From: Saccoglossus kowalevskii
Taxonomy: Eukaryota > Hemichordata > Enteropneusta > Harrimaniidae
Length of the DNA: 35,375 bases
Direction of reading: 5' to 3'
Assembly: GCF_000003605.2 (NCBI RefSeq)
Contig: NW_003151253.1
Span: forward strand, 221,914-257,288
A program made the position numbers and the translations under genes. Shown piece by piece: positions 9,706 through 33,139 of this stretch (the stretch's first letter is position 1; each line of letters starts with the position of its first letter). The notes under the pieces were generated by a model that saw nothing but the letters and a program-made list of their open reading frames with translations, was not told where the DNA came from and ran no database searches.

Positions 9706-12700
9706 ATATTGATTTTGTGTTATGCATTCTTTCAATATTCAGCTTTTCCTATTGTTTATTAAAATTTAATAGAGTACACCATTATTTCTTATTCAATAAT
9801 CGTTAACAAAATAAGGCCTAAAGTGAGGTTATGTATTATTTCGTTAACACTGTTCATAGACATTTAGTTTACGCTAGTTTTATTAAGAAATATAGTTTTC
9901 AAAACACTCGAATTGCGGTTTTAGAGATGCATTGGTAAAATAAAAAATCATTATGACCATTGAAAGTGTGGTCTGATTTATCACACTGAACTGCAATATC
10001 AAACTATCTTATCATAACAGTACCTTATCCATGGAATTGCTGAGAAAAGAACAGATGTGAGTTCCTTACCACTTGCAAGAAATATTTCGAATTTGCCATT
10101 ATTTTGGGGACCAGCAATATATGCATTTGAAAGCATTGGAATAGTAAGTAATAACTATGACAAAGTAATACCTGCTTTATTACGTGAATCGTTTTTCATA
10201 TTCGACGTTATGTTAGCAACATGACATACGACAACATTCATGGATTTATTCCAATACCGTGTTGTTGCGGCTGTTAGTTTTAACTGTCAACGTTTTACCA
10301 AGTCGGTTTTCAATGTTCAGGCTTTTCCCATTTCTTATCTTAGGTACTTCCAGTCGAAAATAAAATGAAACATCCACATGATTTCAAGAAAGTTCTCTAC
10401 ACTAGTATGTCTATTGTGACGACTGCGTTTGTTACTTTTGGGACCCTTGGATACCTGTGCTTTGGTCCAGGCGTCTTGGATACAATTACACTGAATCTAC
10501 CAGAAGATCAGGGGTAGGCTTTCAGAGAGATACATTTTCAATATTATAATATATGTCAACGTTAGTAATTTCCTAGATTGTTAGTAATAAGCAGGGGATA
10601 TCAGTTAGGTAAAAGGTGATCAAAATATGTTGTTTTTTTTTCGCTCATTAGGTAAAGCACCGTAATATTTACTAAAGTTACTTATATACTTTATGTGCAT
10701 TGATGTTGTATTAATAACTTTAATTTACAAAATTCCTAATAAAAGGTAATCAACTGTAGTATGAGAACATCGCTTGTAATATAATCATTGTTACTCGCAG
10801 CTGCGTTCACATGCATTTATAACTAACTTTCTATGGGAATATATCGTAACACACGTCAATATTTCTTGTCACCCGTTAACGTGATTGCCCTTTATAAACT
10901 TAATAACAATCCATTTAATATAGAACATGGCATATTATTCTGTATATAGTACAGTACATTGTATAAATAGTGAGCAAAAAAAAAACGTTTATAATTATAC
11001 CAGTAATTACCAGTACAGTCAGCTGGCGTACAAGTGATAATATGACATAACCCCACACCCTCCCCATGGCTTTCGTTGCGTATGGAAGTTATTTTCACGA
11101 GTGATGCGGTGTATCCTGCGGCCGTACTTTCACGAGTGAGCGAAGTTAACTTCCATACGCAACAAAAGCCAGGGGAGGGTGTGTGGTTCCGTTATTATCA
11201 CATATGTTCCATATTATTGTTTATTTCATATTAAAAAAAGAACGTGCAAGCATGCCGTGCAACTGCGGTACACCACTGACGGGTTGACTTTCATCGACAG
11301 TGGTCGTCGCTGAGCGGCACCCTACAATATCGTTTGTGATGTTGCAGCTGGTCGTGGATTGAACGAGTCTTGGTTGCCGGTTATAATGTTGCTCATTTGG
11401 CGTTAGTAATCTTTATTTGGAACTGAGTAATGTCGCCAGCAGAAACCTCCCGGTATCTCGATGTTGATGGTTGCGGCTCCATAGTAATCGCTGATTTCAC
11501 TGCGGGTGGGTCATCCGAAAGCCCTTCATGGCTTATAAAACTCGTAGTATTCCATGTGATGTACACCTAATATGCCAACAATTTCGCTGAACGATTTGAA
11601 CCGGATAAAAATTGCAGACGAAAATGTGTTTACAAAATAAAAATGGAAATGCCATGTATTGCATGGGTGATATGCAAATTAGCTTTAGTCAAAATAAGTG
11701 ACTGCATAAAAATACCATTACTGTTGTTCAAATGTTTGTTTATTTCTTCATCCGGGATATTATCGTAAGCTGAGGCAAAACGTAACGCTTTGCTTAATAG
11801 ATCCACGCTTATCACTCACGCCAAACAAACATTGTTGATCCACAATCAATCGCCAAACAAACATTGTTGATCCACAATCAATCGCCGTGGCGAAATAGGG
11901 GCTCCAACACGTTTGATGTCACAATGGGAAGTTACGATGGCGCAGAGACCTGTGAACTTGTGGGCTGCTTCCTGCTTTCACAGCTCAAAGCACAGTTAAA
12001 AAAGAAAGTCCGCATCGGTCTATACAGAGATGATGGCTTAGTCGCCTTAGACGCCACACCCAAAGAGACTGAAAAAATCAAAAAAAGCTATCTGTCTCGT
12101 GTTTAAAAACAACGGCCTAAAGATCACGATCGAAGCAAACAAGAAAATTGTAAACTTCCTTGATGTCACGCTAAACCTCATTGAAAAATCGCACAGTCCC
12201 TTCATAAAGCCTAATGCCAACTTGGTATATGTACACAAGGAGAGTAATCACCCACCCGCCATCACAAAGAATATCCCGGCCGGCATTAACAAGTGTCTTT
12301 CTGCAATATCGTCAGATAAGAAGATTTTTGACATCGTGGCACCACCCTACCAAAGAGCTCTACGCGAAAGCGGCTACAAACACCAACTAAAGTTTGAGCC
12401 CCCACGGAGAAGGGTAAAAAAAACGGCCGCGTAGCAACGTCCTTTGGTTCAACCCACCATATAGCTGCAACGTCCGCAACAGTATAGGAAAGCGATTCCT
12501 GGATCTAATCGACAAGTGCTTTCCTACCGGCAACAACCTCAAGAAAATATTTAACAGAAATACAATCAAAGTCAGCATCGAAGATACCATCAATAAGAAA
12601 AACAAACACCAACTCGCGACCGAAAATAACACTACCACTGACGAAACAAATTATGCAATTGCCAGAAAAAAAAACATGTCCACTAGACGGGAAGTGTTTG

Positions 12701-14297
12701 CAGTCTGGCGTCGTATACCAAGCGGAAGTTACGCGTTTAGACAAACACACCAGCGAAACGTACGTTGGACTTACTGGTAATGAGTTCAAAACAAGATACA
12801 GAAACCACACGGCCTCATTTCGCAATCAGGCCTCCAGAAATGCGGCAGAACTAAGTAAACACGTCTGGTCACTCAAAGAAAAAGATATTGAATATAAAAA
12901 ACAATGGAAAATGTTTGCTCGCGGTAGCCCGTATAATATATAGCAAACGATGCATTTTACGTTTGAAGGAAAAATTTATCAATTTTTAGACCCCACCACT
13001 CCACACTAAACAAAAGGATCTGTGTCATCATGCCGACACAGATCAAAAGCTCTAATATTTAACAATTAGACTTTCTATTTAATTTTAATTAATATGTTAA
13101 TTTGCGAAGCTTATAATGTATGCTCTTTGGTGCAGTGAATTATTAAACATAAAGCTTCTGATGAGTGAGGTACTTGTATCTTACGAAACAGTGCTGTCGA
13201 GTTTCAATATTCATGTAGTTGTATATTAATTTCTCTATCACCGTATTCACCCGCTCTACATATACTTTGTATTGAGCACTTTTGTTTTGGAATAATCGAC
13301 TTTCGTATCTACACTATATATATATTATATATATCTTTCCCTTTTGTTTTGATTGTTTGTTTTCATCTTTTTCGCCCGTATTATTATTACTATTGTTTGA
13401 ACTGCAGTAAATTTACTTCCGATCTGGTGAACGCAAAAAGACAACTTAAGATAACATTAATCGTTTATATTGTTTACTTTTTAGACTCTATATTTCCTTG
13501 AAGATATTATTCTCCATGGTGATGTTTGTCAATTATGGTTTACAATTCTATGTAATAATACAGATAACATGGCCATGTGTGCAAGAGTATGTACCAGAGA
13601 ATTATCGAGTATTCGGCGAATATGTAATCCGAACAACACTTGTTCTAATCACATGTAAGTATGCATCTACTATTTTTCCTTATCTTTCATTGTCAACGGT
13701 TTTATTACTAATTAACACATTCAACGCAGCAGCTATTCCCCTCCAATGGTTGCGTGGCACTTGTCATGTTTGTATATGTATATTTCTATAAGTTGTGTGT
13801 CAATATTTATCTAATTACTTTCCAATGGCTTTATAGTTGCTAACATTTATTTGGAAACACATGTAAACGTTAATTGAGCTTTTAAAGGTTACAATTAATC
13901 TGTTGCTATAATTTCACTAGATACTTTCATTTGCGTGACATATTTTTCAGTGGTATTTGCAGCAAGTATTCCACACCTGGGTCTGTTCATCTCATTGGTT
14001 GGATCATTTGCAGGCAGTGGCCTAACTCTGATTTTTCCGCCAATCATCGAAGAACTTACATTTTACAATGGTTACAGAGAAACAACGTCAAGATTGAGAC
14101 TGACAAAAAATGTTTTAATAGTTGTTTTTGGAATATTGGGATTTATATTCGGTACTTTTGCGTCAATTGTAAAAATAATTTCTGCATTCAAATTCGTGCC
14201 AGATATGTGTATGCTAATTCTGGATAATTCAACAATGATTAATGCAACGGCAGTACCATCCTGCCTCCTTTTTAAGAACTCGAATATTCATTATTAA
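5629..14297 (+). CDS. SLC36A-like: SLC36-type proton-coupled amino acid transporter (10 coding exons)
   Basis: The gene encodes a predicted polytopic membrane protein that should move small amino acids with protons across plasma or lysosomal membrane, as known for SLC36/PAT members. Coding exons: 5629-5696, 6126-6216, 7029-7117, 7644-7739, 8317-8401, 8792-8959, 10021-10143, 10344-10513, 13485-13654, 13951-14297. They sum to 1407 nt (468 residues plus stop), with every junction in phase and every intron GT..AG. Length matches the family (about 450-500). Landmarks: [20 protein letters not shown] near residue 25-45 (PAT 'HLLKGNIGTGLLGLP'), [17 protein letters not shown] (54-70), [11 protein letters not shown] (about 90), [17 protein letters not shown] (about 122-140), NYGLQFYV (about 312) and [11 protein letters not shown] (about 360). 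The N-terminus before the first helix is short (about 24 residues). Which paralogue it is, and its substrate, cannot be told from sequence. Confidence 0.9.
6126..6216 (+). CDS. SLC36A-like: SLC36-like exon 2, first transmembrane helix
   Basis: Bounded by TTTCCAG and GTACGA. Encodes [20 protein letters not shown] and the rest of TM1, the most diagnostic segment of the family. It contains an unwound-helix type glycine motif (NTGPG where vertebrate PATs have NIGTG). Phase 2 in, phase 0 out. Confidence 0.92.
7029..7117 (+). CDS. SLC36A-like: SLC36-like exon 3, TM2
   Basis: Starts after GCTTACAG and ends at CG|GTAAGTAAG. Encodes [20 protein letters not shown] and [10 protein letters not shown]. 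The vertebrate counterpart reads LGPISLLxIGI, then HCM and LCxR. Phase 0 in, phase 2 out. Confidence 0.92.
7344..7510 (+). pseudogene. Dead tandem copy of SLC36 exon 4 and its upstream intron
   Basis: This segment repeats 7521-7699 at about 90 percent identity by eye: 3' intron sequence plus the first two thirds of exon 4 ([18 protein letters not shown]). In this copy the acceptor CAG is CAT, the duplicated exon stops at GCGGTTGT and runs into an in-frame TAG, and no donor follows. It therefore cannot act as an alternative exon as it stands. The offset between copies is 189 bp at the 3' end. Confidence 0.85.
7644..7739 (+). CDS. SLC36A-like: SLC36-like exon 4
   Basis: Bounded by CTGTTTCAG and AG|GTAAGAAA. 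Encodes [20 protein letters not shown] then [11 protein letters not shown], the loop before TM3 (vertebrate 'DYGDTVMYGLE'). Its first two thirds and upstream intron are tandemly duplicated just before it (7344-7510). Phase 2 in, phase 2 out. Confidence 0.9.
8317..8401 (+). CDS. SLC36A-like: SLC36-like exon 5, TM3
   Basis: Follows ATCTTTCAG and ends at CAG|GTATAT. Encodes [20 protein letters not shown] and ASNVQQ, matching the PAT motif TQLGFCCVYFVFLADN. Phase 2 in, phase 0 out. The following intron contains an open frame of 103 codons (8457-8768) that is not continuous with the exon and resembles nothing recognised. Confidence 0.92.
8792..8959 (+). CDS. SLC36A-like: SLC36-like exon 6, TM4-TM5
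   Basis: Exactly 56 codons between TTTGTAG and GTACGT. Encodes two hydrophobic segments joined by [17 protein letters not shown], which fits the family segment FIRNLRALSIFSLLANI. Phase 0 at both ends. Confidence 0.92.
9100..9240. other. GC-rich intronic island with three hairpins
   Basis: Within SLC36 intron 6. Three perfect or near-perfect inverted repeats occur in 130 bp: CGCTTT/AAAGCG (9110-9124), GCCACCT..AGGTGGC enclosing the palindrome ACGCATGCGT (9133-9157), and CTTAGCG/CGCTAAG (9209-9236). Base composition and CpG content differ from the flanks, so it may be a small mobile repeat. No family recognised. Confidence 0.5.
9567..9708. repeat. Microsatellite (TAAA)n
   Basis: About 35 units of TAAA with two or three single-base interruptions (AAGTAAAT near 9611 and 9627), inside SLC36 intron 6. 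The long low-complexity minus-strand open frame across it is an artefact. Confidence 0.97.
10021..10143 (+). CDS. SLC36A-like: SLC36-like exon 7
   Basis: 41 codons between TCATAACAG and GTAAGTAAT. Encodes [20 protein letters not shown] then AFESIGI, matching the PAT segment '[22 protein letters not shown]' that continues in exon 8. Phase 0 at both ends. Confidence 0.93.
10344..10513 (+). CDS. SLC36A-like: SLC36-like exon 8
   Basis: Follows TATCTTAG; ends CAGGG|GTAGGC. Encodes [14 protein letters not shown], then [20 protein letters not shown] and YLCFG, matching family 'LPLENxMKxPxxF' and 'GxLGYLxFG'. Phase 0 in, phase 2 out. It is followed by a 2.97 kb intron filled with mobile elements. 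Confidence 0.93.
10514..11033. other. SLC36 intron 8, 5' part: nothing assignable
   Basis: AT-rich intronic sequence with no recognised repeat, RNA gene or exon-like segment. Confidence 0.5.
11034..11202. mobile_element. Foldback/MITE-like inverted-repeat element
   Basis: The arms 11034-11103 and about 11128-11202 are reverse complements over about 70 bp with a few mismatches, separated by about 25 bp. Each arm contains ACACCCTCCCC and GTTGCGTATGGAAGTTA (or its complement). The outer ends read GTGATAAT and ATTATCAC. It encodes nothing and fits a miniature inverted-repeat or foldback element. Target-site duplication is not clear. Confidence 0.75.
11203..11731. other. SLC36 intron 8, middle part: unassigned
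   Basis: A somewhat GC-richer stretch (about 11270-11560) sits between the foldback element and the Penelope-like insertion. No protein motif or repeat structure was recognised on either strand. Confidence 0.4.
11732..11818 (-). mobile_element. Inverted 5' segment of a Penelope-like element
   Basis: The minus strand encodes [20 protein letters not shown] then DEEI. From memory this resembles the segment that directly precedes '(I)KHARKSLLF' in Penelope-like reverse transcriptases. Similarity fades past about 11732. The segment lies head to head with the + strand RT fragment that begins at 11819, as if the 5' end of the element were inverted. Confidence 0.55.
11819..11882 (+). repeat. Perfect 32-bp tandem duplication at the element junction
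   Basis: The 32-bp unit beginning CGCCAAACAAACATTG occupies 11819-11850 and again 11851-11882 without mismatch. The second copy continues in frame as [10 protein letters not shown] into the RT fragment. It marks the head-to-head junction of the inverted and sense segments. Confidence 0.95.
11855..12945 (+). pseudogene. Penelope-like element: RT tail plus GIY-YIG endonuclease, frameshifted
   Basis: Plus-strand pieces in consistent order. [10 protein letters not shown] and [18 protein letters not shown] lead into RT motif [12 protein letters not shown] (11864-12106). A frame change follows, then [26 protein letters not shown] and [20 protein letters not shown] (12099-12434). Another change follows, then [20 protein letters not shown] (about 12449-12510). 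Last comes [18 protein letters not shown] and [20 protein letters not shown] then LSKHVWSLK (12653-12943), a GIY-YIG endonuclease with a preceding cysteine pair. The RT N-terminal half is missing. RT plus C-terminal GIY-YIG is diagnostic of Penelope-like elements. At least two frameshifts make it inactive. It lies in sense orientation inside SLC36 intron 8. Confidence 0.85.
13017..13044. repeat. Perfect 10-bp inverted repeat (hairpin)
   Basis: GATCTGTGTC (13017-13026) and GACACAGATC (13035-13044) enclose an 8-nt loop. It lies between the end of the Penelope-like coding remnant and the hammerhead motif, so it may belong to the element's 3' untranslated region. Confidence 0.8.
13147..13216 (+). 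ncRNA. Hammerhead ribozyme motif (type I topology), Penelope-associated
   Basis: All conserved core elements are present in order: CTGATGA (13158-13164), stem II GTGAG/CTTAC (13165-13169 with 13180-13184, one G-U) with a 10-nt loop, GAAA (13185-13188), and a short stem III A15.1-U16.1 plus CAG/CUG with a 2-nt loop (13188-13197). C13198 is the residue 5' of the expected cleavage site. Stem I AAGCTT/GAGTTT (13152-13157 with 13199-13204) has two G-U pairs, and ACAT/ATGT (13147-13150 with 13213-13216) extends it past an internal loop. Hammerheads are known in the repeats of Penelope-like elements, and a tiny stem III is typical there. Activity is not shown. Confidence 0.8.
13217..13484. other. 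SLC36 intron 8, 3' end
   Basis: AT-rich, with a short palindromic TATATA stretch near 13315-13333. It contains the acceptor TTTTTAG used by exon 9. The boundary of the Penelope-like insertion was not determined. Confidence 0.5.
13485..13654 (+). CDS. SLC36A-like: SLC36-like exon 9
   Basis: Bounded by ACTTTTTAG and ACAT|GTAAGT. Encodes [20 protein letters not shown] then [12 protein letters not shown], matching family 'SVKLLYSIGIFxTYxLQFYVP'. It ends RTTLVLIT before TM10. Phase 2 in, phase 1 out; a short internal ATG-initiated frame is only part of this exon. Confidence 0.93.
13951..14297 (+). CDS. SLC36A-like: SLC36-like exon 10 (stop codon)
   Basis: Follows TATTTTTCAG. Encodes [20 protein letters not shown] then [15 protein letters not shown], the strongly conserved AAAP C-terminal pair of helices. 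A last helix ([17 protein letters not shown]) and a tail of about 40 residues lead to TAA at 14295-14297. No AATAAA follows closely; an ATTAAA near 15089 is the nearest candidate polyadenylation signal. Confidence 0.92.

Positions 14298-16622: not shown

Positions 16623-33139
<16,517 letters not shown>

Follow-up and report, generated by a model that had tools for sequence, protein, structure and literature searches.

The locus described here raises the question of what a hammerhead ribozyme motif does inside an intron of an SLC36 gene, and whether it cuts the host transcript that carries it. The window, meaning the whole stretch of 35,375 nucleotides (nt) that was analysed, comes from the hemichordate Saccoglossus kowalevskii (assembly GCF_000003605.2, contig NW_003151253.1, positions 221,914 to 257,288, forward strand), and all coordinates below are window positions. 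The motif lies in a repeat that looks, from its translated pieces, like a Penelope-like element (PLE). In the best explanation, with a probability of about 0.79, it is a type I hammerhead of the 3' untranslated end of this element, is carried passively in the SLC36 intron, and would cut as a dimer in the element's life cycle with little effect on splicing. It is most likely a passenger, and a further member of an already known group, the dimer-type Penelope hammerheads.

Positions 13147-13216 of the plus strand hold a hammerhead motif whose three stems can pair, as the preliminary description of this DNA had it; its core is complete and of type I. CUGANGA, GAAA and NUH are all correctly spaced, and stem I is the open stem. 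The catalytic core CUGAUGA (C3 to A9; 13158-13164) is followed by stem II (13165-13184; arms 13165-13172 and 13177-13184), with 8 bp and the loop CUUG, then by GAAA (G12 to A15.1; 13185-13188) and by helix III, the self-complementary ACAGUGCUGU (ACAG-UG-CUGU; 13188-13197). From its placement within the motif, C13198 is the predicted cleavage-site nucleotide C17. Stem I has its 5' arm at 13152-13157 and its 3' arm at 13199-13204; two of its 6 bp, and two of the 8 bp of stem II, are G.U pairs. Core, GAAA and stem I arms are read from the sequence and from aligned copies of the repeat. Farther out, an internal loop (13205-13212) faces A13151, and ACAU (13147-13150) could pair with AUGU (13213-13216) as an outer helix of stem I. 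Two details of the earlier account need amending. The G.U pairs that it listed in stems I and II are present but are not compensating: G13167.U13182 in stem II is common to most aligned copies, and most of the other aligned copies have G-C in place of U13157.G13199 and G13170.U13179, so that these two weaken the window copy. The 4-bp stem III with a 2-nt loop has its four pairs by the scanning descriptor, but such a loop sterically cannot close, which leaves the monomer with a GUGC loop on 3 bp.

The descriptor was run on both strands of the window, with 2000 windows of the same length, simulated by an order-1 Markov model, as control. It gave a single match with a stem I of at least 3 bp, the present motif, whose stems I/II/III measure 6/8/4 bp (the 4 of helix III being sterically 3 in a monomer). 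Simulated windows contained a match in 43 of 2000 cases when at least 3/3/2 bp were demanded, in 3 at 4/4/2, in 1 at 5/5/2 and in none at 6/5/2. Two covariance models, R1 from 17 viral type I hammerhead pieces and R2 from 119 R1 matches in 72 viral loci, contain no animal sequence. The motif was top-ranked in the window by R1 (E 0.018) and was matched by R2 at 13152-13204 with 24.4 bits (E 1.3e-5; runner-up in the window 9.9 bits), both E-values being rough because the calibrations were short. Neither the descriptor nor R2 brought up a second hammerhead anywhere in the window. The loose hammerhead pattern alone is near chance (9 matches in the window, 6.4 expected), and the plain fold energy of the motif does not go beyond that of shuffled sequences (z -0.56, 49/200).

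The motif belongs to a repeat family. A 161-base query against the 572-Mb genome, with 40 of 170 candidates scored, was placed at no fewer than 41 positions, window included. Forty stretches, the window locus among them, were fetched with flanks of about 2.8 kb; the copies are largely truncated. The exact core string had 39 matches in the genome and a stricter one 34, and the reversed controls had none. With R2 at E ≤ 0.5, 27 loci of the 40 fetched gave one match each, and 33 of the 41 aligned rows, counting that of the window, have kept the whole core intact. Where homology did not cover the region, rows were dropped: L156_1988 before the core and pair counts, and L171_2901 and L162_2966 also before the mutation counts. 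Among the aligned copies, 7 private mutations fell in the 13 core sites (permutation mean 7.2, P 0.56), and the core shows no sign of gaining extra protection as the family decays. Since private mutations strike the core as often as elsewhere, nothing suggests that the host keeps the ribozyme, a statement based on the family and not on this locus across species; domestication by the host was rejected on the same absence of protection. The diverged relative L179 retains core and stem II, has a perfect palindrome as helix III and scores 26.5 bits with R2; its upstream flank aligns poorly. Of the aligned letters, gaps left aside, 52 of 53 are identical within the hammerhead, compared with 30 of 39 on its upstream side and 35 of 43 on its downstream side; several insertions, within loop II and close to stem I, lie inside the motif, so that the first figure is flattered. 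This retention points to constraint within the element lineage. A further hairpin, GATCTGTGTC...GACACAGATC, stands at 13018-13045 in the 3' end of the element; its loop and part of its 3' arm match in 23 other fetched loci, and the matches mostly begin inside the 5' arm.

Copy alignments place the element at 11737-13334 of the plus strand. Alignments to the 39 other fetched loci stop at 13334 (9 loci) or 13246 (10 loci), and the leftmost shared piece begins at 11737; a separate match of 106 nt in L155 (11034-11139) was left out of these limits. The first piece, reverse transcriptase (RT) sequence at 11737-11812 by copy comparison and translation, is on the minus strand: in L136, L140 and L168 it adjoins the next RT piece in the orientation opposite to that in the window. 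The window copy is hence 5'-truncated with a 5' inversion. On the plus strand follow an RT piece at 11882-12103 with YRDD at 12023-12034, a C-terminal RT/linker piece at 12051-12434 with 60-90% identity to pieces of other copies, and a GIY-YIG-like endonuclease piece at 12509-12943 (VYQ...TYVGLT...RYRNH). The stretch LYRDDGL and the GIY-YIG-like stretch in the element frames are what we take to be Penelope-like motifs; PLEs encode an RT of telomerase type with a GIY-YIG endonuclease behind it, and their hammerheads lie in the pLTR (pseudo-long terminal repeat), copies of which often stand head to head at the 5' end. The hammerhead lies after the end of the open reading frame, at the 3' end of the element, which agrees with its earlier placement 3' of a Penelope-like coding remnant, the class itself following from those motifs. 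Near the inversion junction there is a perfect tandem duplication of 32 nt (11819-11850/11851-11882). Inversion of the 5' end together with a duplication is similar to the twin-priming products of other retroelements. Nothing convincing was seen as a target-site duplication at 11737/13334, and scans of viral contigs for relatives of the element proteins confirmed none. At L156, L170 and L171, inverted partial copies of the 3' end lie head to head, an arrangement described, in the cited passage, for Penelope pLTRs (PMC3846280).

The host gene is read from three open frames on the plus strand. The upstream exon (10344-10513, where 10344 is the start of the open frame; Aa_trans 2.3e-14), the downstream exon (13485-13654) and the last exon seen, with a stop codon (13951-14297; Aa_trans 6.4e-10), join in frame across GT/AG borders, and the spliced frame matches PAT1/SLC36A1 in a library of solved structures (E 2.9e-39). 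The intron that holds the element runs from 10514 to 13484 (2971 nt), with its donor after 10513, its acceptor before 13485 and the frame kept. The element is in sense relative to SLC36, as had been reported, and the distance of about 290 nt to the next exon given then was close: a cut after 13198 would leave exactly 286 nt before the exon at 13485.

This arrangement invites the explanation that the ribozyme works as a monomer within the intron and tunes SLC36 expression by cutting the pre-mRNA ahead of splicing. Its sense orientation 286 nt upstream of an exon and its intact core are in favour, as are the intronic hammerheads of RECK and C10orf118, which the cited part of PMC3088659 gives as active in vitro. 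Folding predictions speak against it. In the 53-nt monomer the predicted pairing probabilities are 0.96 for stem II, 0.02 for stem I and 0.00 for helix III, and the best fold (-12.9 kcal/mol) differs from the hammerhead fold (-6.5 kcal/mol). For helix III the predicted energy is +1.3 kcal/mol in the hairpin and -12.4 kcal/mol in a 10-bp self-duplex, which bears out the earlier expectation of weak or dimer-dependent activity as far as such models reach. The weakness of helix III belongs to the family, since its probability is at most 0.09 in all 23 siblings folded. Viral controls folded in the same way had all three stems above 0.5 in 84% of 129 cases, a figure biased to good folds because the descriptor used to select them requires stems to be paired. 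Energy models are blind to tertiary contacts, and folding is thus not decisive against monomer activity; two stem pairs are also weaker here than in most aligned copies, and the family core is without sign of protection. Cutting of the pre-mRNA by a lone copy is accordingly regarded as quite improbable. The competition of self-cleavage with splicing that had been proposed for this intron is not supported: the models predict an unstable helix III and an almost unpaired stem I in the monomer, no partner hammerhead was found in the window, and the family shows no extra protection of its core.

The same energies bear on a somewhat less improbable, still unlikely alternative, namely that the window copy is a dead fossil that cuts neither as a monomer nor as a dimer. 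The hammerhead fold is weakened by G13170.U13179 and, where stem I begins, by U13157.G13199; it has -6.5 kcal/mol in the window copy and -11.2 kcal/mol in 14 of the 23 siblings folded, and Rfam gives no match at E ≤ 10. Set against this, every core position is intact and every pair is still a standard one.

The preferred explanation, a passive hammerhead of dimer type, would work as follows. A 5'-truncated, 5'-inverted insertion would have brought the hammerhead passively into the SLC36 intron. Because the 10 nt of helix III are self-complementary, two hammerheads can share a 10-bp helix III, and each would then complete the other's core, so that element RNA would most likely be cut after C17 once two copies pair. 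Published systems offer parallels: the palindromic loop III of an Aedes hammerhead gives a 10-bp stem between two RNAs (Perreault et al. 2011, PMC3088659), and PLE hammerheads are, in the passages cited, minimal hammerheads of type I for which cleavage as dimers may occur, and are without tertiary contact between loop I and loop II (PMC7761336). In an Anolis PLE, catalytic mutants of the hammerhead leave insertion in vitro unaffected, according to the cited portion of PMC11167929. For the lone copy in SLC36 pre-mRNA no cis partner was found; it is predicted to fold poorly by itself and should cut slowly, so little effect on splicing is expected. A half-ribozyme with stems weaker than those of most siblings and an unstable helix III would be unlikely to compete strongly with splicing. 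It is conceivable, and judged very improbable, that copies lying in sense in introns serve as half-ribozymes in trans: SLC36 pre-mRNA would pair by way of the palindromic helix III with transcripts of the element or with further copies, and would be cut only when the element is expressed. Were this so, element activity would be linked to host gene output in introns with this repeat.

Several results weigh against the preferred explanation. Rfam yielded no hammerhead match at the gathering threshold (whole window) or at E ≤ 10 (stretches of 601 and 64 bases), where short stretches at permissive E gave chance families only; measured by the refuting outcome that the preliminary description named, a lack of covariance-model hits above threshold, the Rfam result speaks against the motif, though R1 and R2 do match it. 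Of 32 viral hammerheads that the descriptor had located in 8 loci (31 of type I and one of type III), RF00163 recovered only 1 at gathering, so the miss at that setting says little. At E ≤ 10, Rfam found both viral hammerheads tried as 64-base stretches (30.0 and 30.5 bits; E 2.3e-6 and 1.6e-6), which makes the permissive miss real evidence of a weak, off-model form. The sibling copy L150 from the same genome was matched at the permissive setting by RAGATH-1-hammerhead only (E 3.4, far under gathering). This hammerhead family departs well from the Rfam type I model. Within the family, stem-pair changes among copies comprise 21 broken and 16 kept pairs, with no covariation. A direct tandem pair of hammerheads, which dimer cleavage inside a single element RNA would lead one to expect, was seen in none of the 40 fetched loci (R2 at E ≤ 0.5, within the flanks of about 2.8 kb around mostly truncated copies), nor did another 3.3 kb of upstream sequence at copy L178 reveal one. 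The RT and endonuclease pieces, a longer sibling frame included, received no support from Pfam (for the endonuclease, none above cut-off), NCBIfam or PDB, and the single-sequence AlphaFold model of the element protein was poor and of no support; for these reasons the Penelope class depends on the motifs in the translations.

The Rfam results, with none for the window and a weak one for L150 at E ≤ 10, and the shuffle-like fold energy are also what would be seen if the repeat family carried a hammerhead-like string that arose by chance and was never a ribozyme. This is the hardest of the explanations to credit: no simulated window in 2000 reached stems of 6/5/2 bp, R2, built on viral hammerheads, matches the motif at E 1.3e-5, and L179 has kept core, stem II and palindrome across its divergence. 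For practice, a miss by Rfam of this copy at E ≤ 10 and of 31 of 32 viral controls at gathering counsels caution when ribozymes are ruled out by Rfam.

Some observations lie beside this argument. The canonical hammerhead pattern matches at least 120 stretches of viral contigs (L007-L125), and several contigs carry two or more hammerheads of type I or III. Five other pattern-scan candidates (L001-L005) were accepted as hammerheads by the descriptor scan in no case and were not used as controls; in four of them (L001, L003, L004 and L005) the conserved hammerhead-like string adjoins a pemK RNA according to Rfam. Upstream of the element, 11042-11195 is an imperfect inverted repeat (34-nt arms, 88%; 24-nt arms, 83%), perhaps a small hairpin transposon, and part of it provides the 106-nt match in L155. 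The minus strand at 16929-25345 holds exons of an ABC transporter, with ABC_tran or ABC_membrane matches in three of four frames tested; the fourth, 30748-31077, had neither. These exons presumably belong to an ABCC/MRP gene.

The closest known systems are the minimal type I PLE hammerheads, which, in the portions cited, share a core of type I at the non-coding end of an element with RT and GIY-YIG parts (PMC7761336, PMC6155905, PMC7229834), together with a weak helix III and a plausible dimer mode. Helix III is described as absent there, whereas here it has 3 bp and a palindromic loop, and no direct tandem pair was seen in the 40 fetched loci. The repeat hammerheads of Aedes, newt and axolotl are similar in their self-complementary stem or loop III, of 10 bp in the Aedes dimer, and the low monomer activity reported for the amphibian palindromic forms is counted as a further likeness (PMC3088659, PMC7229834, as excerpted); the amphibian forms are short tandem repeats, in contrast to a motif within a coding retroelement. 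RECK and C10orf118 resemble the SLC36 case in having a type I hammerhead in sense in a host intron, but the former is conserved across mammals and birds and the latter across mammals, according to the passages cited (PMC3088659, PMC6155905), and here a repeat copy is concerned. Animal retrozymes of the non-long-terminal-repeat (non-LTR) kind also carry a type I hammerhead in an animal repeat, on the cited account (PMC7229834); by contrast, no tandem array of 170-400 nt was found around the SLC36-intron motif, whose element has RT and endonuclease remnants. With 39 core-pattern matches, the genome holds enough natural variants for monomer and dimer cleavage to be compared in what appears to be a family of Penelope-type hammerheads whose helix III is of the dimer style, standing between the forms without helix III and those of the retrozymes.

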